Source of the DNA: Lentzea atacamensis
GTDB lineage: Bacteria > Actinomycetota > Actinomycetes > Mycobacteriales > Pseudonocardiaceae
NCBI RefSeq assembly: GCF_003269295.1
Contig: NZ_QLTT01000003.1
Span: 124,001-188,000, forward strand
Reading direction: 5' to 3'
DNA: 64,000 nt
Shown: piece after piece, positions 51,954-64,000 of the stretch
Numbering within the stretch: the stretch's first letter is position 1
How the letters are laid out: every line of letters starts with the position of its first letter
Notes under the pieces: generated by a model
Told to the model about the DNA's origin: nothing
Seen by the model: only the letters and a program-made list of their open reading frames with translations
Database searches by the model: none
Position numbers and translations under genes: made by a program

Positions 51954-53005
51954 CTAAACCTTGACGCGCACGTCAAGGCAACCTTTTCGGTCAGCGGCAG
52001 GGACGGGTGACCGGTGCCTGGTGGTCCGCATGGCCGCCGCGGACAGCAGCCCGAGCAACAACACGCCGATCGGCAGCAAGAACGAGATCTTGACCGCGTC
52101 CGTCAGCCCGTTCTGCAGGACGTGGTTGGCGAGCTGTCGTGCCTGGTCGGCGACCGCCGGTGGCAGGTCCGGCGGGAGCGGGGGAGCGTCGTCCCCGAAC
52201 CGGCCGATGCCGCCTCCCGCGTCGGCGAAGCAGCTGACGAAGGGTTGCCGGAACTCGGCGGGCAACGCGAGCGCGGCCTCGTCCGCCCTCCTGGCCGTGG
52301 ACGCGGTGATCTGCGCCTGCAGCAGCACACCGACCGCCGCGCTGCCGAGCACCCCCGCCGGTCTGACGGGCGGTGTTGAAGATGCGCGACGCGCTGCCGA
52401 CGAGTTCGCGGTCGACCGAGCCGATGGTCACGTTGCTCATCGGGGAGAAGATGAACCCGACACCGAGACCGCACAGCAACAGCCCGGGAAGCACGGTCGA
52501 CGGCGAGCTCACCGGGGTGATCAACAGTGCGATGACGCCGAGGCCCGTGGACAGCGTGAGCAAGCCGAACATCAACAGGTACTTGGGGTTCATCCGGTCC
52601 GACAGCCGGCCGACGAACGGTGCGGCGCTGCCGGACAGCACGGCCATCGGCGCGATCAGCAGTCCTGTGTCGGCCGGGGACAGTCCGAGCACCGACTGGG
52701 CGTAGATGACCAGCAGAAGCGGCATGCTCGTCATGACGAACCCGACGGCCACCGCGGACAGGCTGCCGCGGAGAAGTCGCGGTTGTCGAAGACCTGCAAC
52801 GGGAGCAGTGGCGCGCGGCGATTCATTCGTTGCCACAGAACGAAACCGACCAGCAGCACACCCGTCCCGATGATGTCGAAGACACACCGATACCCGCACC
52901 GACCGTGCTCCACTCGTACCTCCGTCCATTTTGGAGGCCGAAGACGACGCAGAACATGCCGGCGCCGCAGAGCAGGATTCCCAGCAGGTCGAACCGGTGC
53001 GCGTT
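51954..53005 (-). pseudogene. Remnant of a DHA2 (EmrB/QacA)-type MFS exporter
   Basis: Only the second half of a 14-helix exporter is left, in at least four frames. From the 5' end: NAHRFDLLGILLCGAGMFCV; after a shift near 52880, VFDIIGTGVLLVGFVLWQRM and LLPLQVFDNRDFSAA; after a shift near 52765, LSAVAVGFVMTSMPLLLVIY to SASRIFNTARQTGG; after a shift near 52360, VLGSAAVGVLLQAQITASTA to the stop at 51954. The first six or seven helices are missing. The winged-helix gene on the other strand starts where they should be. Confidence 0.8.
51959..51978. promoter_or_regulatory. MerR operator/promoter palindrome
   Basis: CCTTGACG-CGCA-CGTCAAGG is a perfect 8+8 inverted repeat 15 bases upstream of the merR start. 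Its minus-strand arm contains a TTGACG -35 box, the usual placement for MerR-type activators that bind inside an overlong spacer. Confidence 0.7.
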
Positions 53006-53031
53006 CTTGGGTTGCGAGGAGGCGATCTGTC

Positions 53032-53465
53032 ATGCGGTTCGGCATCACCATCGACACCGTCGACGAAGACACCGCGTTACGGCTGCTCAGCGCGCTGAAC
53101 GGGGTGGCCCTCGCGCACCAGGGCGAGGATGAGGACGTGGAGGTGCGGATCCTGCCGGACACGCGCCAGGTGCTGCTCCGCGACGTGCCCGTCGACCTCA
53201 CCAGGCTGGAGTTCGAGCTGTTGCTGCACCTCTGCGAGCATCCCGGCCGCGTGCACCGCCGCTGTGAGCTCCTGGCTGCGGTGTGGGGCGTCAGCGACGA
53301 CTGCAGCGGCGCCCGCACCGTCGACGTGCACGTCCGGCGGGTCCGGCAGAAGCTCGGCGACGCGGCCGGCGTGATCCAGACGGTGCGCGGCGTCGGTTAC
53401 CTGGTCGCCTCGACCGGCGGGTGCGGATCGACCGCTCGCCGAACGTGGTGCGGCTGGCCGGATGA
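53032..53465 (+). CDS. Winged-helix DNA-binding protein with a probable frameshift near its end
   Basis: From ATG 53032 a 130-residue protein can be followed: an N-terminal ligand-like part (MRFGITIDTVDEDTALRLLS) and an OmpR-type winged helix (LTRLEFELLLHLCEHPGRVH, RTVDVHVRRVRQKLG, VRGVGYLVASTG). It lacks a receiver domain. In the starting frame the ORF runs on to 54069 through the phosphotransferase gene, which is implausible. One base shift at the G run near 53418 gives VRIDRSPNVVRLAG and a stop at 53463-53465. It is either a real frameshift or a sequencing indel. Confidence 0.6.
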
Positions 53466-53543: not shown

Positions 53544-54416
53544 ATGCACGACGGCGAGGTCGCGACGGATGTGTCCCTTGTGGACGAACTCGTCCGCGCG
53601 CAGTTCCCGCGCTGGCACGGCCTCCCGATCACGCACGTCGCGCACGGTGGCACCGGCCACGCGATCTACCGCCTCGGCGACGAACTGGCGGTCCGCCTCC
53701 CGCGCATCGAATGGGCCGGCGACCAGGCCGGACGCGACGCCGCGACGCTGCCGAAGCTCGCCCCGCACCTTCCTGTCGCGGTTCCGGAACCGCTGGAACT
53801 GGGCGAGCCCACCGAGAACTACCCGTACCCCTGGTCGATCGTGCGCTGGCTCAGCGGTGACATCGCCCCGGTCGACGCGGTCGCCGGCGACACCGGGATC
53901 CGCCTGGCCGAGGTGGTCCAGGCGTTGCAGAAGATCGACACCGGCGACGAGCCGTGGACCACCTACCGAGGCCGGCTGGACCTCTCCACCGGCGACGAGG
54001 ACGTGCGCAGGTCGATCGCGGAACTCGGCGATGACCCGAGGCTCGTCGCCGTGTGGGAGGAAGCGCTGAGCGCGCCGTGGTGGACCGGGCCGGGCCGCTG
54101 GCTGCACGCCGATCTGCACCAGGGCAACCTGCTGTTCACCGGCGGCGAGCTGACCGGCGTGATCGACTGGGGTGCCGCGGGCGTGGGCGACCCGGCGGCG
54201 GACCTCATGACCGCCTGGTTGTTCCTCGACGAACGCGGCCGCGAGGCGTTCCGGCGCGAGCTGCGCGAGTTCGACGACGCGACCTGGGCCCGCGCGCGTG
54301 GCTGGGCGCTGCACCTCGCTGTGCTCGCGCTGCCGTACTACCGCGACACCAACCCGTTGCTCGCAGGCATCGCGCGCCACACCCTGGGCCAGCTACTGGC
54401 GGAACGCTCCTGGTGA
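53544..54416 (+). CDS. Aminoglycoside phosphotransferase-family (APH) kinase
   Basis: The ATG at 53544, behind GGGGGAG, gives 290 residues. The ATP-binding lobe has FRIGDE-like YRLGDELAVRLPRIEWAG, the catalytic loop is WLHADLHQGNLLFTGG, and the metal aspartate is in VIDWGAAGVGDPAADL. This is the APH(3')/macrolide kinase-like fold (PF01636). Such genes in actinomycetes often act on unknown small molecules, so resistance should not be assumed. It overlaps the convergent araC-type gene by 24 bases. Confidence 0.85.
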   Translation: MHDGEVATDVSLVDELVRAQFPRWHGLPITHVAHGGTGHAIYRLGDELAVRLPRIEWAGDQAGRDAATLPKLAPHLPVAVPEPLELGEPTENYPYPWSIVRWLSGDIAPVDAVAGDTGIRLAEVVQALQKIDTGDEPWTTYRGRLDLSTGDEDVRRSIAELGDDPRLVAVWEEALSAPWWTGPGRWLHADLHQGNLLFTGGELTGVIDWGAAGVGDPAADLMTAWLFLDERGREAFRRELREFDDATWARARGWALHLAVLALPYYRDTNPLLAGIARHTLGQLLAERSW

Positions 54417-55232
54417 CATGCCCGCCTCGCGGGTGAAGAACTTGGTGAAGTTGGTGGCCTCGCTGAACCCCAGCCGATGTCCGATCGCCGCGGACGACAG
54501 GTCGGTGTGCACGAGCAGGCGTTTGGCCTCCAGTGCCACGCGAGCGTCGATCAACGCCTTCGCAGACCGGCCCGTGGCGGCCAGGCAGATGCGGTTGAGG
54601 CTGCGCAACGAGTAGCCGATGCGCGCCGCGTACTCGGCGGCGTTCCGCGTGGCAGCGAACGAACGCTCGAGCTCCTGCTGGAAGCGTTCGAACCTGGCGT
54701 CGCTGTGCTCGGGGCCGGCGTCGTGCGGCAGGCGAGCGATGCGCAGCAGCAACGCGCCCAGCAACTGGCGGAGCAGGTCGACCGGCTCGTTCGTCAGCAC
54801 GTTGCGGCGGTACTCCTGCCGGAGGTCCTGCACGGCGCGGGTGACGACCGCCCGCTCGGCCTTGGGGATGGTGCGCACCGCCGGGCCGAACGGGCTGAGC
54901 ACCGGGCGCGTGCCGTCGAGCGGTGGCGGGAACGCCGGGGTGAAAAGGACCATGAACGCCTCGGCGTCGCCCTGAGGGAGACGGAGTACGCGGCCGGGGC
55001 TGACGTGCAGCAGCGTGCCCGGCACGCACGTGTGGTCCACGAAATCGACCATGGTGGTGCAGCTGCCCGCGGTGACCAGCAACATCTGGTGGAAGTCGGT
55101 GCGGTGCACCTTCGTCAGCGTGTCGTCGGTGAGCCTGCGACGGAGCACGGCGAGGTCGAGCACCTCCATGCCGAGCCGGCCGCGGTCGGGGTTGCTGAAG
55201 CCGAACTGGGCGACCTGTCCACTTTTGACCAT
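54393..55232 (-). CDS. AraC-family transcriptional regulator
   Basis: The protein has 279 residues. An N-terminal cupin-like sensor (HQMLLVTAGSCTTMVDFVDH, PGRVLRLPQG) is followed by the double HTH of AraC at about 185-275: AAEYAARIGYSLRSLNRICL, then SSAAIGHRLGFSEATNFTKF and FTREAGMSPGAFR. It is divergent from the tandem SnoaL-like gene, 56 bases away, which is its probable target. Confidence 0.9.
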   Translation of the reverse strand: MVKSGQVAQFGFSNPDRGRLGMEVLDLAVLRRRLTDDTLTKVHRTDFHQMLLVTAGSCTTMVDFVDHTCVPGTLLHVSPGRVLRLPQGDAEAFMVLFTPAFPPPLDGTRPVLSPFGPAVRTIPKAERAVVTRAVQDLRQEYRRNVLTNEPVDLLRQLLGALLLRIARLPHDAGPEHSDARFERFQQELERSFAATRNAAEYAARIGYSLRSLNRICLAATGRSAKALIDARVALEAKRLLVHTDLSSAAIGHRLGFSEATNFTKFFTREAGMSPGAFRQ

Positions 55233-55288: not shown

Positions 55289-56035
55289 ATGGACAACAAG
55301 GAACTCGTGCTCAAGGCCGCCGGCGAACTCTTCGGTGACAAGGATCCGTCCGCTGTGGACCGTTGGGTTTCGCCGGACTACCGCCAACACAGCGCGCTTA
55401 TCGGTGACGGTCCCGAGGCGCTGCGCGGGCTTGTCGCTGATCTTCCCGAGGGCTTCCACTACGAACTGGCGCGCGTGATCGCCGACGACGATCTCGTTGC
55501 GCTGCACGGTGTTTACCACGGGTTCGGTCCAGAGCCGCTGGTGGCGTTCGACCTCTTCCGGGTCGAGAACGGCAAGCTCGCCGAGCACTGGGACGCGCTC
55601 ACCCCGGTTGTGCGGGAGACGGCCGGTGGACGGTCTCAAACGGGCGGTCGGTCGTTCGGAGGTGACACCGAGCACTCCCGCGCTCTCGTCAGCGAGTTCG
55701 CGCAGCGCGTCCTGCAGGACGCCGACTACTCGGTGCTGACCGACTACATCTCCACCGAGACCTACCTGCAGCACAACCCGGAGGCCGCCGACGGTCTCAC
55801 CGGTTTCGGTGCCGCCGCCGCGAAGTGGGCGGGCGAAGGTAAGAACCTGGTCTACAAGACGATCCACAAAGCTGTGGCCGAGGGCGATCTCGTGCTGCTG
55901 CAGTCCGAGGGCGAGTTCGGCGAGCCGGTCGCGTACTGGGACCTGTTCCGGGTCGAGAACGGCAGGATCGTCGAGCACTGGGACGTGATCACGCCGATCC
56001 CGGCGTCGCTGCCGCACACCAACGGCCTCTTCTGA
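55289..56035 (+). CDS. Tandem SnoaL-like domain protein
   Basis: The protein has 248 residues and two SnoaL-like (NTF2-fold) units. The first is at about 5-110 (YRQHSALIGDGPEALRGLVA, AFDLFRVENGKLAEHWDALT) and the second at about 130-240 (YLQHNPEAADGLTGFGAAAA, YWDLFRVENGRIVEHWDVIT). The repeated DLFRVENGxxxEHWD pattern marks an internal duplication. Such YesE/SnoaL-like proteins often handle small reactive carbonyl or polyketide compounds. Control by the divergent AraC protein is inferred. Confidence 0.85.
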   Translation: MDNKELVLKAAGELFGDKDPSAVDRWVSPDYRQHSALIGDGPEALRGLVADLPEGFHYELARVIADDDLVALHGVYHGFGPEPLVAFDLFRVENGKLAEHWDALTPVVRETAGGRSQTGGRSFGGDTEHSRALVSEFAQRVLQDADYSVLTDYISTETYLQHNPEAADGLTGFGAAAAKWAGEGKNLVYKTIHKAVAEGDLVLLQSEGEFGEPVAYWDLFRVENGRIVEHWDVITPIPASLPHTNGLF

Positions 56036-56368: not shown

Positions 56369-59300
56369 GTGGACATGCTGTCGGATCGAGAACGGGTGCT
56401 GTGCCTGAGTCCGTTCGGCACCCCGAACCCGGCCCTCGTGGTCGCGGCTGAACGAGCGGGTGGAGTCGGTGTGCTCGATCTTGGAGCACATGCTGCCCGT
56501 GATCTGGGGCGCGTCACCGCGCGTCACGAGGGTGCGTTCGCGGTGCGGCTGCACGGGCCGTTGGCGGTGGACTTGCCGGACGCGGTCGACACCGTGGTGG
56601 TTGATCTCGTTCGGCATCTTCCGAACCTGGCTGAGCTGGGTGAACGCCGGATCCTCGCCGTGGTCACCTCGGTGGCGGAGGCCGCTGAGGCGATCGCGGC
56701 GGGAGCTACCGGGCTGATCGCCAAGGGTGCCGAGGCCGGTGGCCGGGTGGGTGGTTCGCCCGCCTTCGTGCTGCTTCAGCAGGTGCTCGCGCTGACCGAT
56801 CTGCCGGTCTGGGTGGCCGGGTCGATCGGGGCCGGCACGGCTGCCGCGGCGGTGGCCGGTGGGGCGCGCGGAGTGGTGCTGGAAGGGCAGCTCGCGCTGG
56901 TCGCGGAGGTCCGGAAACACATTTCCGATGAAATTGTCAACGTCCTCCGCGCGATGGACGGCGCCGACACCGCCGTGAACGACGGAGTGCGTGTGCATGT
57001 TCGTCAGAACACGCTCGAAATTGGCCAGGAAGGCGCGTTCGCGGAATTCAATCGCCTCTCGTTTGGGACCGTTGGAGGCGTGGTCGGCGCGATTCAGCGG
57101 GGCATTCGCGACAATCTCGCGCAGGCGGCCGAGCACCGCTCGATTCGGACCGGCGGGACGTTCTGCGAGCGTGTGCCGGGGCTGCGTTACCCGATCGCGC
57201 AGGGGCCGATGACGCGGGTCAGCGACCAGCCCGCGTTCGCCGCGGCCGTCGCCGAGGGTGGTGCGCTGCCGTTTCTCGCACTCGCGTTGATGGAGGGCAC
57301 CGCCGTCCGCGAGCTGCTGGAAGAAACCTCGCGGAAGCTCGGAGACCGGCCCTGGGGCGTTGGTCTGCTCGGCTTCGCGCCACCGGAGCTCAGGGCGCGC
57401 CAGCTGGAGGCCGTGCTGGCGGTGCGGCCGAAGTACGCGATCGTCGCCGGTGGCACGCCCGCGCAGGCGCGCGAGCTGGAGGACGCGGGGATCGAGGCGT
57501 TCCTGCACGTGCCGTCGCCCGCGTTGCTGCGCCGGTTCCTCGACGAGGGCGCGCGCAAGTTCGTCTTCGAGGGCTCGGAGTGTGGCGGTCACACGGGTCC
57601 TCGAACCAGCTTCACGCTGTGGCAGCAGCAGATCGACGTGCTGCGCGGGCGTGAGAAGGGCGTCACGGCACTGTTCGCGGGCGGCATCCACGACGCGCGC
57701 TCGGCTGCCATGATCGATGCGATGACCGCGCCGATCGCGGCACGCGGTGCGGCGATCGGTGTTCTCGTCGGCACGGCCTACCTGTTCACCGAGGAAGCGG
57801 TCACGCACGGCGCGATCCAGCCGGTGTTCCAGCAGGTCGCGCTCGAGTGCGAGGACACCGCGCTGCTGGAGACCTCGCCCGGCCACGCGGTTCGCTGTGC
57901 GCAGACGTCCTATGTGGACACGTTCGAGCAGAAGCGCGCCGAGCTCGCCGGCCTGCCCAAGCAGGAGAGCTGGGAGCGGCTCGAACAGCTCAACCTCGGC
58001 CGGCTCCGGCTCGCGAGCCGCGGGCTCGTCCGCGATGCCGGCGGGCTCAAGGAGGTCGGCGAGGACGAACAGCGCCGCGAAGGCATGTTCATGATCGGCC
58101 AGGTCGCGGCGCTGCGGTCCGAGCGCACCACGATCGCGGAGCTGCACGAGGACATCGTCTCCGGTGTGCTGCCGGAGACCGGCTCGGACGTCGCCGAGCA
58201 GGAGCCGCTGGACGTCGCCATCGTCGGCATGGCCGCGATCATGCCCGGCGCGCGGGACGTGGCCGAGTTCTGGGCGAACGTGCTCAAGGGCACGGACTCC
58301 ATCACCGAGATCCCGCCGGACCGCTGGTCGCCCGAACGCTACGGCAGCCCGTTCAGGTGGGGCGGGTTCATCCCGCGCACGGCGTTCGACCCGCTCGCGT
58401 ACGGCATCCCGCCCACCTCGCTGACCTCGATCGAACCCGCGCAGCTGCTGGCGCTGGAGGTGTCGGCCCGCGCGTTGAAGGACGCCGGGTATGCGACGCG
58501 CGTGTTCGACCGCGAACGCACGGCGGTGATCTTCGGTGCCGAGGCCGGTGCCGATCTCGCGACCGCCTACACGATCCGCACCGCATTGCCCGCGCTGGGA
58601 ATCCGCGGCCTCGACGACCACCTGCCCGCGCTGACCGAGGACTCGTTCCCCGGCGTGCTGGGCAACGTTATCTCCGGTCGCGTGGCGAACCGGCTCGACC
58701 TCGGTGGCGCCAACTACACGGTCGACGCGGCCTGCGCGTCCAGCCTCGCCGCGCTCGACGTGGCGTGCAAGGAACTCGTCGGCGGCACCAGCGACATGGT
58801 GTTGTGCGGCGCGGTCGACCTGCACAACAGCGCGCACGACTACCAGATGTTCGCGTCCGTCAAGGCGTTGTCCGCCAAGGGGCGGTGCGCCACGTTCGAC
58901 TCGGCTGCGGACGGCATCGCGCTCGGTGAGGGCGTGGCCTGTCTGGTGCTGAAGCGGTTGCCGGACGCGGAACGGGACGGCGACCGGGTCTACGCCGTGA
59001 TCAAGGGCATCGGCGCGTCCAGCGACGGCCGGTCGATGGGCCTCACCGCGCCACGTCCGGAAGGTCAGCAACGAGCGCTGCGTCGTGCCTACGCGTCGGC
59101 TGGTCTGCCGGTCACGTCCGTCGGACTGGTCGAGGCGCACGGCACCGGAACCGTGGTGGGCGACCGGACCGAGCTCGCGTCGCTGACCGAGATGTTCACC
59201 GGGGTCGAGCCGGGCACGTGCACGATCGGCTCGGTGAAGTCGCAGATCGGGCACACCAAGTGCGCGGCGGGCCTCGCGGGCGTCATCAAGGCGGCGCTGG

Positions 59301-62300
59301 CCGTGCACACCGGACTGCGGCCCGGCACGTTGCACGTCAAGCAGCCCAACGCCTTCTGGGACGCGCGGACCAGCCCCTTCGCGTTCGGCCACCGCACGTG
59401 GGCCCGGCCGACCGGCGAACGCGTGGCGGGTGTGAGCGCGTTCGGCTTCGGCGGCACCAACTTCCACACCGTCATCGCCGGGTACTCCGGCGCCGACGAG
59501 CCACGCCACGGCCTGACCGCATGGCCCGCCGAACTGTTCCTGATCCGCGGTGAGGACCCCGAGGCAGCGCAACGGGAAGCAGCTCGCCTCACCGCGCTGG
59601 TGGACGAGCGCACACCGTTGCGTTCCCTGGCTGCTGCGTGCGGCAACGGGCCTGTTCAGGCGGCCTTCGTTGTGAGCGATCACAACGGCCTGCGGGCAGC
59701 GCTCGCGGACGTCGAGGCCTGGCGTTCGAGCGAGACCGTCCGGCTGGGCGGCGGTGAGCGGCCGAAGATCGCGTTCCTCTACCCCGGCCAGGGCAGCCAG
59801 CGACCGGGCATGCTGCTCGACCTCGTCACGGCCTTCCCGCGACTGCAGGAGTTCGTGGACGCACGGTACGAGCGGGTGATGTACCCGCCGGTTGCGCTCA
59901 CCGCCGACGACGTCGCGAAGCAACGCGCGGAGATCACCGACACGCGGATGGCACAGCCGACGCTCGGCATCGCCGGGCTGATGGTCACCGCGCTCCTGGA
60001 ATCCGTTGGTGTGCGGCCGGATCTGGCCGGTGGCCACAGCTATGGCGAACTGGTCGCGCTCGCGGCCTCCGGCGTGTTCGAGCCCACCGTCCTGCTCGAC
60101 CTCAGCGTCGCCCGTGCCGAGACGATGCTGGAGGCCGTGGGGGAGGACCCCGGCACGATGGCCGCGGTGTCCGCGTCGCTCGCCGACGTCGAGGCGCTGC
60201 TGCCGCCGGACGTCGTGGTGGCCAACCACAACGCGCCCGACCAGGTTGTGATCTCCGGTCCCACCAAGGCCGTGGAGAACGCCGTCGAAGTGCTGCGCAA
60301 CGCCGGGTTGAGCGTGAAGAACATCCCGGTCGCGGCCGCGTTCCACAGCCCGTTGATGGCGGGTGCCCGTGACAGGTTCGCTGCTCGTCTCGCGGAGATG
60401 TCCATCGGTGAGACGGCTTTCCCGGTCTGGTCGAACGTGACCGCGCAACCCCACACCGACGTGCGGGAGGGCCTGTCCGCGCAGCTCGCGGGCCGGGTGC
60501 GGTTCGTGGACCAGATCGAGTCGATGTACGCGGCCGGCGCGCGGATCTTCGTAGAGGCCGGACCGGGTGGCGTGCTGACGTCGCTGGTGGGCAGGACCCT
60601 CGGCGACCGGCCGCACCAGGCGTTGCGCTGCGACGACCACGTGACGTTCCTGCGCACGCTCGCGGAGCTCGCGGTCGCCGGCGTCGAGGTGGACGCCGCA
60701 CCGCTGTTCGAGGACAGGGCCGAACCGGCCACGGCCGTGCCGCAGCGGCCGTCCTGGTACGTGGATGGAGGTCTCGTGCGCGACGCGAACGGCGACGCAC
60801 TGCCCGGCGGGCTGCGGCCCGCCACCGAGTTCCCGACCCTGCGCGCCGGAGCGGGGCTCAGTCGTGACGAGATCATCGAGAAGTTCCTGGACGGCATGCG
60901 GGACGCGGTCAGCGCCCAGCGCGACGTCCTGCTGAGCTACCTCGGCAACGCTCCCGCCGTTCCGGCACCGATGCCGGTGATCGAGCAGGCGAAGGCGCCG
61001 GAACCGCAGGCGAAGCCGCAGGAGGACGTCGCGACGGTGGTGCTGCGGACGATCAGCGACCGCACGGGTTACCCGGTCGAGATGCTGCAGCCGGGCCTGG
61101 ACCTGGAAGCGGACCTGTCGATCGACTCGATCAAGCGGACGGAGATCGTCGGCGAGCTGGCCCAGGAACTGGGCGCCGCCGGGTCGATCGACGAGCTGGC
61201 GCAGATCAAGACGATCGAAGGCATCGTCGGCTGGTTCGGCGCCACGCCCGCCAGTGCTCCGGCGAAGGATGTCAAGGCGATCGTGCTCCAGACGATCAGC
61301 ACCCGCACGGGTTACCCGGTCGAGATGCTGCAGCCGGGCCTGGACCTGGAAGCGGATCTCTCGATCGACTCGATCAAGCGGACGGAGATCGTCGGCGAGC
61401 TGGCCCAGGAGCTGGGCGCGACCGGTGAGATCGACGAGCTGGCGCGGCTGAAGACGATCGAGGCGATCGTGGCGTGGTTCGGTGCCGGGCAAGTGGCGTC
61501 TGCAAGTACCACCAACTCGCAGCCGGCAGTACTCGCGGACGCGCCGACGACGGGCCGTCTCGTGCGGCTCGTGCCGCAGGTCGTGCCGTGCGAGCCCGCC
61601 GAACCCGCCGACCTCACCGGCAAGACGGTCCTGATCGTCGACGACAACGGCATCGGTCTCGAGCTCGCCGACCTCCTGGAACGCCACACCGCCCGCCCGC
61701 GCGTCGAACCGGTCTTCCCGGACGACCTGACCGGCATCGACGTCGTGGTTCGGCTCGGCGGACGGCTGCCGGAGGCGTTCAGCGAGGTCAAGGCCTGCGT
61801 GACCAAGGGCGTGAGCCTCCTCGTCGTCACGACGGGCGGCGGCACGTTCGGCTTCGACCACACCCCGGACGAGCTGCCCGCGGACATCGGACTGCACGGC
61901 CTGATCCGCACGGCCGCGCTCGAGCACCCGGACCTCGTGGTGCGCGCGGTCGACGTCAACACCAAGGAAAGCCACCGCGACATCGCCACCGCCCTGCTCA
62001 CCGAGATCGGCCCCGGCCCCGCGGTCGTCGGCTACCACGCGGGCAGGCGGCAGGTCATCGAGGCGGTGCCGGCGGAGCTCGCGCCGAGCACCCTCAACCT
62101 CGACGCCGACAGCGTGGTGCTGCTGACCGGTGGCGCCCGCGGCATCACCGCTCTGGTCGCGACCGCGCTCGCCGAACGCACCGGCTGCCACGTCGAGCTG
62201 CTCGGCCGCACCCCGATCGCGCCGGAGGACCACCGGCTCGCCCACGCCACGACCGAGCCCGCGCTCGTGAAGGCGTTGTTCGAGCTGGGGCACACGACGG

Positions 62301-62878
62301 ACGTTCCCGCGATGGCGCGCAAGGTGCTCGCCGAACGCGAGGTCCGTCAGACCGTGGAACGCCTGCGCGTCAAGGCGTCGAGCGTCAGGTACCACGAGTG
62401 CGACGTCACCGACGCCGAAGCCGTCGCGAAGGTGCTCGACGACATCAAGGCGCGGTTCGGCCGGATCGACGGCGTCATCCACGGTGCGGGTGTGCTGGAC
62501 GACAAGCTGATCGCGGACAAGACCCAGGAGTCGTTCAACCGGGTCTGGGCCACGAAGGTGAACGGCGCCAAGGAGTTCCGCGACGGCTTCCTGGTTCTCT
62601 TCGGCAGCGTCAGCGGTGTGTTCGGCAACCGCGGCCAGGCCGACTACTCGGCCGCGAACGACGCCCTCGACCTGATGGCGAGGTTCTGGGGCACGCAACG
62701 CCGGGTCGTGGCCGTCGACTGGGGTCCCTGGGCCGGCGCGGGCATGGTGGTCGGGCTCGCCGGCGAGTACGCGCGCCGCGGCATCCCGCTGATCGACCCG
62801 GAGCAGGGCGTCACCGCGCTCCTCGACGAAATCGCCGGCGGCTCGGACGTCCAGGTGGTCTACCGATGGGAGGCATAG
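56369..62878 (+). CDS. PUFA-synthase-like iterative PKS: NPD-NPD-KS-AT-ACP-ACP-KR
   Basis: The GTG at 56369 has GAGGAAG 8 bases upstream; 2169 residues. Two FMN-type nitropropane-dioxygenase barrels come first: about 1-230 (KGAEAGGRVGGSPAFV) and about 265-545 (YPIAQGPMTRVS, GSECGGHTGPR), the type that acts as enoyl reductase (PfaD) in PUFA synthases. KS about 614-1040 has C789 in DAACASS, EAHGTGTVVGD and IGHTKCAAG. AT about 1130-1430 has GHSYGE with S1224. Two ACPs carry DSIK with S1587 and S1668. KR about 1900-2150 has TGGARGI and Y2093. No DH is present. The LSIDSIKRTEIVGEL form of the ACPs points to Pfa/heterocyst-glycolipid synthases rather than modular PKS. Product unknown. Confidence 0.88.
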   Translation: MDMLSDRERVLCLSPFGTPNPALVVAAERAGGVGVLDLGAHAARDLGRVTARHEGAFAVRLHGPLAVDLPDAVDTVVVDLVRHLPNLAELGERRILAVVTSVAEAAEAIAAGATGLIAKGAEAGGRVGGSPAFVLLQQVLALTDLPVWVAGSIGAGTAAAAVAGGARGVVLEGQLALVAEVRKHISDEIVNVLRAMDGADTAVNDGVRVHVRQNTLEIGQEGAFAEFNRLSFGTVGGVVGAIQRGIRDNLAQAAEHRSIRTGGTFCERVPGLRYPIAQGPMTRVSDQPAFAAAVAEGGALPFLALALMEGTAVRELLEETSRKLGDRPWGVGLLGFAPPELRARQLEAVLAVRPKYAIVAGGTPAQARELEDAGIEAFLHVPSPALLRRFLDEGARKFVFEGSECGGHTGPRTSFTLWQQQIDVLRGREKGVTALFAGGIHDARSAAMIDAMTAPIAARGAAIGVLVGTAYLFTEEAVTHGAIQPVFQQVALECEDTALLETSPGHAVRCAQTSYVDTFEQKRAELAGLPKQESWERLEQLNLGRLRLASRGLVRDAGGLKEVGEDEQRREGMFMIGQVAALRSERTTIAELHEDIVSGVLPETGSDVAEQEPLDVAIVGMAAIMPGARDVAEFWANVLKGTDSITEIPPDRWSPERYGSPFRWGGFIPRTAFDPLAYGIPPTSLTSIEPAQLLALEVSARALKDAGYATRVFDRERTAVIFGAEAGADLATAYTIRTALPALGIRGLDDHLPALTEDSFPGVLGNVISGRVANRLDLGGANYTVDAACASSLAALDVACKELVGGTSDMVLCGAVDLHNSAHDYQMFASVKALSAKGRCATFDSAADGIALGEGVACLVLKRLPDAERDGDRVYAVIKGIGASSDGRSMGLTAPRPEGQQRALRRAYASAGLPVTSVGLVEAHGTGTVVGDRTELASLTEMFTGVEPGTCTIGSVKSQIGHTKCAAGLAGVIKAALAVHTGLRPGTLHVKQPNAFWDARTSPFAFGHRTWARPTGERVAGVSAFGFGGTNFHTVIAGYSGADEPRHGLTAWPAELFLIRGEDPEAAQREAARLTALVDERTPLRSLAAACGNGPVQAAFVVSDHNGLRAALADVEAWRSSETVRLGGGERPKIAFLYPGQGSQRPGMLLDLVTAFPRLQEFVDARYERVMYPPVALTADDVAKQRAEITDTRMAQPTLGIAGLMVTALLESVGVRPDLAGGHSYGELVALAASGVFEPTVLLDLSVARAETMLEAVGEDPGTMAAVSASLADVEALLPPDVVVANHNAPDQVVISGPTKAVENAVEVLRNAGLSVKNIPVAAAFHSPLMAGARDRFAARLAEMSIGETAFPVWSNVTAQPHTDVREGLSAQLAGRVRFVDQIESMYAAGARIFVEAGPGGVLTSLVGRTLGDRPHQALRCDDHVTFLRTLAELAVAGVEVDAAPLFEDRAEPATAVPQRPSWYVDGGLVRDANGDALPGGLRPATEFPTLRAGAGLSRDEIIEKFLDGMRDAVSAQRDVLLSYLGNAPAVPAPMPVIEQAKAPEPQAKPQEDVATVVLRTISDRTGYPVEMLQPGLDLEADLSIDSIKRTEIVGELAQELGAAGSIDELAQIKTIEGIVGWFGATPASAPAKDVKAIVLQTISTRTGYPVEMLQPGLDLEADLSIDSIKRTEIVGELAQELGATGEIDELARLKTIEAIVAWFGAGQVASASTTNSQPAVLADAPTTGRLVRLVPQVVPCEPAEPADLTGKTVLIVDDNGIGLELADLLERHTARPRVEPVFPDDLTGIDVVVRLGGRLPEAFSEVKACVTKGVSLLVVTTGGGTFGFDHTPDELPADIGLHGLIRTAALEHPDLVVRAVDVNTKESHRDIATALLTEIGPGPAVVGYHAGRRQVIEAVPAELAPSTLNLDADSVVLLTGGARGITALVATALAERTGCHVELLGRTPIAPEDHRLAHATTEPALVKALFELGHTTDVPAMARKVLAEREVRQTVERLRVKASSVRYHECDVTDAEAVAKVLDDIKARFGRIDGVIHGAGVLDDKLIADKTQESFNRVWATKVNGAKEFRDGFLVLFGSVSGVFGNRGQADYSAANDALDLMARFWGTQRRVVAVDWGPWAGAGMVVGLAGEYARRGIPLIDPEQGVTALLDEIAGGSDVQVVYRWEA
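61061..61419 (+). repeat. Near-identical tandem ACP-coding repeats, 243-base period
   Basis: A block of about 116 bases at 61061-61176 recurs at 61304-61419, exactly 81 codons later, with only about three differences, all synonymous. Both encode YPVEMLQPGLDLEADLSIDS and IKRTEIVGELAQELGA. The linker parts between them differ more. Confidence 0.9.
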
Positions 62879-64000
62879 CGATCGTCGGCATCGGCGCGGT
62901 CTTCCCCGGCGCCCCTGATGCCACGACGTTCTGGCGCAACATCGTCACCGGTGTCGACGCCATCGGGCAGATCCCGGCAGGACGCTGGGACCCCGCCACC
63001 TACTACGACCAGGACAGCACCACCGGCGACAGGTTCTACTGCCGCAAGGGCGGGTTCGTCGACGACCTGGCCGAGTTCGACCCGACCAGGTTCGGCATCA
63101 TGCCGTCCACAGTGGACGGCGCGGAGCCCGACCAGCTGCTCGCCCTCGGCACGGCCGCCGAGGCCATCGCGGACGCGGGCGGCGAATCGGCTCTGCCGGA
63201 CCGGAATCGGGTCGGCGTGGTCGTCGGACGCGGCGGCTATCTGACGCCCGGCTGTGCGCGGCTCGACCAGCGGGTCCGGCTCGCTGACGAGGTCGTCTCG
63301 GTGGTCCGCGACCTCTTCCCGAACCTGGCCGGCGCGGACCTGGACACGGTCCGCCGGACCATCCGCGATCGCCTGGGGCCGGAGCAGCCGGAGTCGTCCA
63401 TCGGCCTCGTGCCGAACCTCGCGGCGTCGCGGATCGCCAACCGGTTCGACCTCAAGGGCACCGCCTACACGGTGGACGCGGCCTGCGCGTCCGGGCTGGT
63501 CGCCGTCGAGCACGCCGTCCGCGAGCTTCAGGAGGGCCGCGCGGACGCCATGCTCGCCGGGGCGGTGCACGTCTGCCACCACCCGACGTTGTGGAGCGTC
63601 TTCACCCAGCTCCGCGCGTTGAGCCCGAGCGAGCGCATCAGGCCGTTCGACGCCACCGCGGACGGCACGCTGCTGTCCGAAGGTGTCGGCATGGTCGTGC
63701 TGAAGCGGCTGGAGGACGTCGGCGACGAGCGCGTCTACGCGGTGATCCGCGGCATCGGCACGGCCAGCGACGGACGCGCGACCAGCATGATGACGCCCAA
63801 CCCCGAGGGCCAGCTCCTTGCCGTGCAACGGGCATGGGCCAGTGCGGGACTCGACCCGCGGAGGGACGGGCTCGGCCTGATCGAGGCCCACGGCACCGCC
63901 ACGCCCGCCGGTGACGCCGCCGAACTGCAGACGATGATCAACGCGTTCGGCGACCAGGGCGACGAGATCGGCATCGGCACGGTGAAGTCGATGATCGGTC
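62866..64000 (+). CDS. Second PKS subunit, ketosynthase start, partial
   Basis: The ATG at 62866 overlaps the end of the first PKS gene by 13 bases, so the two are translationally coupled. The visible 378 residues are a ketosynthase: GGIAIVGIGAVFPGAPDATT, active cysteine C207 in DAACASGLVAVE, and EAHGTATPAGD. It runs out of the window after GTVKSMIG, where the third catalytic histidine would come next. By analogy with PfaC/HglE-type subunits, a second KS-like chain-length factor and dehydratases would be expected downstream. That is a prediction. Confidence 0.88.
   Translation, partial: MGGIAIVGIGAVFPGAPDATTFWRNIVTGVDAIGQIPAGRWDPATYYDQDSTTGDRFYCRKGGFVDDLAEFDPTRFGIMPSTVDGAEPDQLLALGTAAEAIADAGGESALPDRNRVGVVVGRGGYLTPGCARLDQRVRLADEVVSVVRDLFPNLAGADLDTVRRTIRDRLGPEQPESSIGLVPNLAASRIANRFDLKGTAYTVDAACASGLVAVEHAVRELQEGRADAMLAGAVHVCHHPTLWSVFTQLRALSPSERIRPFDATADGTLLSEGVGMVVLKRLEDVGDERVYAVIRGIGTASDGRATSMMTPNPEGQLLAVQRAWASAGLDPRRDGLGLIEAHGTATPAGDAAELQTMINAFGDQGDEIGIGTVKSMIG

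Follow-up and report, generated by a model that had tools for sequence, protein, structure and literature searches.

A putative secondary lipid synthase from Lentzea atacamensis with two FabK-like barrels in tandem

Introduction

Fused pfaDA genes, together with pfaBC-phosphopantetheinyl transferase (PPTase) genes, occur in Aquimarina and Flavobacterium and have been likened to those of Renibacterium, the available part of that source giving their product as uncharacterised (PMC13291983), and the Type M synthases of Shulse and Allen (2011), from Actinosynnema, Frankia, Renibacterium and S. avermitilis, carry no listed product in the part of that paper at hand (PMC3098273). The present subject is a related pair of polyketide synthase (PKS)-like genes, PKS1 and PKS2, in Lentzea atacamensis, found in a window of 64,000 nucleotides (positions 124001-188000 of contig NZ_QLTT01000003.1, here C3, of a 9.3-Mb genome; coordinates are those of the window unless C3 is named). 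Since Type M and fused pfaDA are already in print, the cluster belongs to a known, chemically unexplored kind. Its first subunit begins with two tandem barrels of the nitropropane dioxygenase (NPD) type, NPD1 and NPD2. We hold it to be an even call that the locus stands for a widespread bacterial synthase family with a covalent enoyl reductase (ER) pseudo-dimer, in which two tandem FabK-like barrels share one chain and the first, without the catalytic His throughout, serves as dimer half, perhaps also as acyl carrier protein (ACP) dock, for the second, the product here being a genus-wide methylated glycolipid so far undescribed. A literature search by titles and abstract openings, with most subscription journals outside it, found no tandem ER barrels in one chain.

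The pfaDA-type synthases share with this locus an ER ahead of ketosynthase-acyltransferase-ACP-ketoreductase (KS-AT-ACP-KR), a second gene with AT and dehydratase (DH) that in relatives ends with a PPTase, and actinobacterial members, whereas here the ER consists of two FabK-like barrels of which the first has no catalytic His, this clade has lost the catalytic lobe of the PPTase, and a discrete ACP, a hydrolase, a glycosyltransferase (GT) and a methyltransferase (MT) follow. The features of the fused-ER clade are all found, namely the ER fused to KS-AT-ACP-KR, the placement of the first KS and a DH partner in the next gene; a PPTase end is usual in that clade and does not define it. The cluster may belong to Type M; the comparison covered a Candidatus Frankia locus (L061), whose domain order matches as far as its incomplete KS. 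In the Ars phenolic lipid operon (Type P; Azotobacter vinelandii, Beijerinckia indica), the first KS falls on the same side of the branch, and Beijerinckia has an ArsA-like gene of order NPD1-NPD2-KS-AT-ACP-KR with an ArsD-like DH-PPTase gene. ArsA acyl chains are given as C23-C25 (PMC4824345) or C22-C26 (PMC13291983) in the parts of these sources at hand. In contrast to Ars, an extra KS-AT lies in subunit 2, GT and MT are partners, and no type III PKS was present in the neighbourhood scanned (two genes upstream, six following PKS2), on which ground Ars membership was rejected.

With the PfaA-PfaD polyunsaturated fatty acid (PUFA) synthases for eicosapentaenoic and docosahexaenoic acid, the locus shares a KS sister to the PfaA type, tandem DSIKR ACPs and the order KS-AT-ACP-KR; it differs in its FabK-like ER, PKS-type DH and two ACPs, and in having neither a separate PfaD nor a chain length factor (CLF). 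The thraustochytrid PUFA synthase likewise has two TIM-barrel ER domains per synthase, ERb and ERc, which form a heterodimer; according to the part of the source available, these are PfaD-like, 75-80% alike, both provided with His and flavin mononucleotide (FMN), and located on two chains (PMC13311796), whereas the barrels here are FabK-like, in tandem on one chain, and one lacks the His. What the present locus adds is thus a FabK-like fused ER, a conserved His-less first barrel, the absence of a CLF, a conserved downstream set and a clade-specific PPTase loss.

The tandem barrels of PKS1

PKS1 lies in an open frame at 56369-62878 (+ strand, 2169 aa). Translation could also start at the in-frame GTG 56369, but the ATG at 56375 is likelier, because Met stands at the matching codon in 11/11 genus-level coding sequences, and the gene is therefore placed at 56375-62878. 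Pfam returned NMO in three stretches, the N and C parts of ketoacyl-synt, Acyl_transf_1, PP-binding in two stretches and KR, which gives the domain order NPD1-NPD2-KS-AT-ACP-ACP-KR that an earlier note, made from the sequence alone, had proposed. That note had also expected no DH in the first subunit and a DH downstream, and indeed none was found by Pfam in PKS1 and one sits in PKS2.

NPD1 (56375-57133) and NPD2 (57146-58174) were folded together by AlphaFold2 as two (beta/alpha)8 barrels (pLDDT 93.1, pTM 0.93), each of which would carry a lid, as we read the hairpin and helices of the model. The VIA-align search with the barrel pair was mainly a test of NPD2, hence NPD1 was folded and searched separately, giving a full predicted barrel with lid (pLDDT 96.8); fold searches matched both barrels to FabK, NPD1 also on its own. 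The sole NCBIfam match for both was the FabK model TIGR03151, with 101.7 bits for NPD2 and 38.9 bits for NPD1, both below the equivalog cut-off of 453.1 bits, so that they are FabK-like and not FabK. The PfaD model TIGR02814 had no match at this locus and reached 20.8 bits elsewhere in the genome; as a control, it found PfaD above cut-off in 5/9 genomes tried, not in this one. The barrels are accordingly not of the PfaD type assumed in the earlier note, and the shorthand "fused PfaD" needs correction as far as the loci covered here are concerned.

The motifs separate the two barrels. KGAEAGG of NPD1 (56723) and SECGG of NPD2 (57575) were found where they had been reported, and the suggestion made from them, that one barrel is catalytic and the other is not, agrees with the pattern of motif conservation. 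In NPD2, QGPMT and ECGGH are invariant among aligned relatives. In NPD1, the position of the catalytic His holds His in 0/101 aligned sequences (two are gapped there) and Arg in the window's copy, the motif I Met occurs in 1/101 aligned rows and is lacking here, and NPD1 is less conserved than NPD2 in 100/100 relatives. Its dN/dS of 0.24, close to the AT and KR values, points to purifying selection. In a barrel tree, the 28 NPD1 rows formed one clade (support 100, starred) and the 28 NPD2 rows another (86), with the sister relation of NPD1 and NPD2 left without resolution. NPD2 is thus a putative FMN-dependent catalytic ER and NPD1 an apparently inactive one; because its fold is complete, its His absent throughout and its sequence under purifying selection, NPD1 may be a built-in dead dimer partner.

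Ketosynthase phylogeny and the remaining domains of PKS1

KS1 (58211-59482) keeps an intact Cys-His-His triad, and of 100 relatives 99 have the Cys and 98 have each His, gaps or X making up the rest. The KS tree comprised 110 KS domains, with family rows from 51 of about 100 loci plus references. All 51 KS1 rows, the Beijerinckia Ars locus included, fell on one side of a branch with SH-aLRT 91, under the starred level of 95; together with six PfaA KS (the gene of one, L145, scores under the TIGR02813 cut-off) and two PfaA-like KS they grouped at 98, starred. Eight modular KS and a further KS from the L. atacamensis genome stood apart in a clade of their own (100, starred), so that the check set by the earlier note, whether KS1 would fall among ordinary modular type I PKS, placed it outside them. 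The 37 KS2 rows formed one clade (100, starred). The PfaA model TIGR02813 gave PKS1 836.4 bits against a cut-off of 1010.1.

AT1 (59774-60604) has its Ser in GHSYGE and its His in AAFHS, and we take it to be malonyl-type. ACP1 (61028-61243) and ACP2 (61271-61486) are identical at 61/72 residues, each with the phosphopantetheine site DSIKR (Ser codons at 61127 and 61370), and the KR domain lies at 62114-62734.

PKS2, its PPTase remnant and the downstream genes

PKS2 begins with an ATG at 62866 and overlaps PKS1 by 13 bases (62866-62878), exactly as earlier described for a second KS gene, from which translational coupling is inferred. Its in-window part on the + strand (62866-64000) is KS2, and the gene continues to C3:190531; at full length (1221 aa) it encodes KS, AT, a two-part PKS-type DH and a short C-terminal tail, a truncated PPTase. 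The Cys-His-His triad of KS2 is kept here and in 75/75 relatives, so there is no CLF in PKS2, and the CLF reading of KS2 was rejected. The DH is a PKS-type PS-DH match that retains the catalytic His and Asp in the window's copy, and no FabA-type DH pair was reported in the PKS2 domain scans.

Behind PKS2 on C3 (locus record L009, 11532-16191; add 178999) follow ACP, alpha/beta hydrolase, GT1 glycosyltransferase, methyltransferase and galactokinase-like genes, which with PKS1 and PKS2 make seven genes head to tail; a GH3 gene comes next on the opposite strand. The GT1 gene exceeds the Pfam UDPGT cut-off, its nearest NCBIfam model being macrolide MGT, under cut-off. The methyltransferase has three hydrophobic stretches and is probably membrane-anchored. 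Of what the earlier note expected to the right of position 64000, the DH, a hydrolase that is possibly a thioesterase and a glycosyltransferase are there, while PKS2 has no CLF, no DH pair of FabA type was reported, and PPTase in cis is only a remnant. Its PUFA-synthase-like reading likewise holds for the PfaA-related KS1 and fails for ER type, CLF and DH type. The 258-aa frame that closes the operon (L009:15415-16191) shows weak galactokinase signatures below cut-offs; a sugar-kinase relative is an odd neighbour for a glycosyltransferase, and its kinase activity is doubtful.

ACPS was above cut-off at the PKS2 end in 4/4 relatives scanned (one Ars-type) and not in the window's gene. An alignment of 22 sequences showed that the first PPTase lobe is left and the GIDIE/WxAKEA lobe missing or unrecognisable in the window's gene and in those of Umezawaea, Kibdelosporangium and Actinocrispum. 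Elsewhere in the genome, one PPTase-family match over cut-off, a 217-aa frame, could act in trans. The lobe also looks shortened at the PKS2 C-terminus of a Sciscionella locus (L099), apparently independently of the window's clade.

Distribution and conservation

The barrel pair was matched in 23/23 other same-genus genomes searched, at 69-94% identity in frames of 1442-2243 aa (in one genome split across two contig ends), and at E <= 1e-40 in 21/148 genomes of the class, the own genome included. A pattern scan of a genome collection gave at least 589 matches, at least 554 of them encoding a relative, of which the best 80 were kept. Among these best 80 of at least 554, NPD1, NPD2 and KS share one frame in 78, and the remaining two are an NPD2-KS frame in which NPD1 was not detected (L104) and one ending before the KS; a separate KS-AT frame is present in 61 and a KS-AT-DH frame in 54, with many loci ending at contig ends. 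The pair is therefore not a chance arrangement. Ten titles in the same set lie outside the actinobacteria, one of unspecified group, and name Planctomycetota, Myxococcales, Deltaproteobacteria, Eremiobacterota, Acidobacteria groups, Dehalococcoidia and Proteobacteria groups. Barrel identities of 87-91% occur, among the matches listed, in six Lentzea loci and one record titled Nocardia sp.

Where sequence suffices downstream of PKS2, ACP follows in 48/48 loci, hydrolase in 15/15, GT in 12/13 and MT in 6/12, counts that retain near-duplicate loci and draw 4 of 13 from the window's genus. Two Streptomyces linear plasmids, typed mobilizable, have transposase genes near their copy of the six-gene set (L024, L174), so that the set may move between hosts; their ACP and hydrolase accessions are identical, and the two loci are therefore not independent. 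L034 and L036 have a trimmed NPD1. No KS2 turned up in L026, L028 or L029, in L076 with both subunits on a single chain, or in the Ars locus, so that KS2 is not essential to the machine; in L026, L028 and L029, from the family of the window's genome, PKS2 homologues match from about the AT on, and AT, DH and following genes are kept. In L076 (1993-12087, an actinobacterial metagenome-assembled genome), the subunits are fused into one 3365-aa frame, NPD1-NPD2-KS-AT-KR-AT-DH-PPTase, without KS2.

Proposed function and alternative explanations

Gene content, linkage, motifs, KS phylogeny and predicted folds together make it fairly probable that the locus encodes a two-subunit iterative type I secondary lipid synthase whose long acyl chain ends up in a methylated envelope glycolipid; from this basis we infer iteration, saturation, chain length, tailoring order, product and the pseudo-dimer. 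AT1 would load malonyl units onto the tandem ACPs and KS1 would extend the chain, optionally with KS2 as a further condensing enzyme, while the beta-carbon would be processed by the KR of PKS1 and the PKS-type DH of PKS2. NPD2 could then reduce the enoyl-ACP, using FMN and NAD(P)H, paired in one chain with NPD1, which would replace the partner that TIM-barrel ERs otherwise gain by dimerising. The long acyl chain would pass to the discrete ACP and be released or transferred by the alpha/beta hydrolase, GT1 would glycosylate it and the methyltransferase then methylate it to the envelope glycolipid, with PPTase supplied in trans.

Long-chain acyl synthesis is the safest part of this proposal, because ArsA, the nearest relative of known role, makes such chains, with PfaA next. 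Full reduction is possible since KR, DH and ER are all present, a methylated glycolipid is argued from the linkage of GT and MT, and a structural role, as opposed to an occasional antibiotic, from the presence of the barrel pair in every searched genome of the genus. A polyunsaturated product is not indicated, given the FabK-like ER, the absence of a CLF and the PKS-type DH; what the sequences indicate is a glycolipid carrying a long chain, saturated or reduced in part. Considering at least 554 encoding stretches and an actinobacterial type without assigned product in the parts of the literature seen, a genus-wide envelope lipid may await discovery. The barrel pair also offers a handle on how iterative synthases dimerise their ER, with a putatively dead partner that is removable in one gene.

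Several observations weigh against this interpretation. NPD1 keeps the motif III Glu in 101/101 rows together with the GGIG and signature glycines and, as these flavin-site features are partly kept, may still bind FMN. The pseudo-dimer is drawn from a single AlphaFold2 chain model. The barrel tree is weak, with long-branch warnings and a PfaD row (L170) sliced at the wrong GGH motif, for which reasons its distances were left unused; the KS tree dropped rows under 380 residues and contains neither HglE nor enediyne (PKSE) KS. The DH His is present in 67/75 relatives and the Asp in 60/75, the remainder being mostly gaps, half of the loci long enough to hold an MT homologue lack one, and DH and ER acting in some cycles only could give a polyene or hydroxylated chain.

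That last course would suit an iterative PKS whose product is a glycosylated antibiotic, either a polyene or a polyketide reduced in part, a reading which the MGT-like GT1, the methyltransferase and the alpha/beta hydrolase, all typical of antibiotic tailoring, and the six-gene sets on plasmids would fit; we consider it unlikely, since occurrence in 23/23 same-genus genomes does not resemble the patchy spread of antibiotic clusters, the six genes scanned after PKS2 include neither a transporter nor a resistance gene, and KS1 lies outside the modular KS. A true PUFA synthase variant, with PfaD fused to PfaA and a polyunsaturated fatty acid as product, appears very unlikely. The PKS1 score of 836 bits with TIGR02813 speaks for it but stays under the cut-off of 1010, and the grouping of KS1 with PfaA and the DSIKR tandem ACPs, like the naming of such loci elsewhere as fused pfaDA (in the available part of PMC13291983), must be set against a FabK-like ER in place of PfaD, a KS2 triad intact in 75/75 relatives, a PKS-type DH with no FabA-type DH/isomerase pair reported, only two ACPs, and a separate PfaD near PfaA in same-class genomes of the Pfa type. 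A PUFA product was rejected on DH type and on the absence of CLF and PfaD.

The role of NPD1 has its own alternatives. It is improbable, though not strongly so, that NPD1 is a decaying, functionless duplicate and no working partner; the losses of His and Met, the lower conservation in all relatives compared and the trimmed or undetected copies in L034, L036 and L104 would be expected of decay, whereas the complete predicted barrel with lid, a dN/dS much like that of AT and KR, and retention across several phyla with its own signature Glu and glycines would not. That both barrels bind FMN and act, for example on different chain lengths, seems highly improbable: the kept Glu and glycines and the thraustochytrid pair, in which both domains bind FMN as far as the available part of PMC13311796 goes, lend it some weight, but ERb and ERc both keep the His that NPD1 lacks in every aligned sequence, and the motif I Met is nearly always gone.

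Neighbouring genes

Just upstream of PKS1, a gene with two SnoaL-type stretches (55289-56035) adjoins a divergent AraC-type regulator gene (54393-55232). The two occur together in 5/7 genus loci (L040-L046) and are not core. Further upstream on the reverse strand (51954-53318), a translation resembling a major facilitator superfamily transporter is split over several frames, as if broken, in a by-eye reading of the open reading frames.
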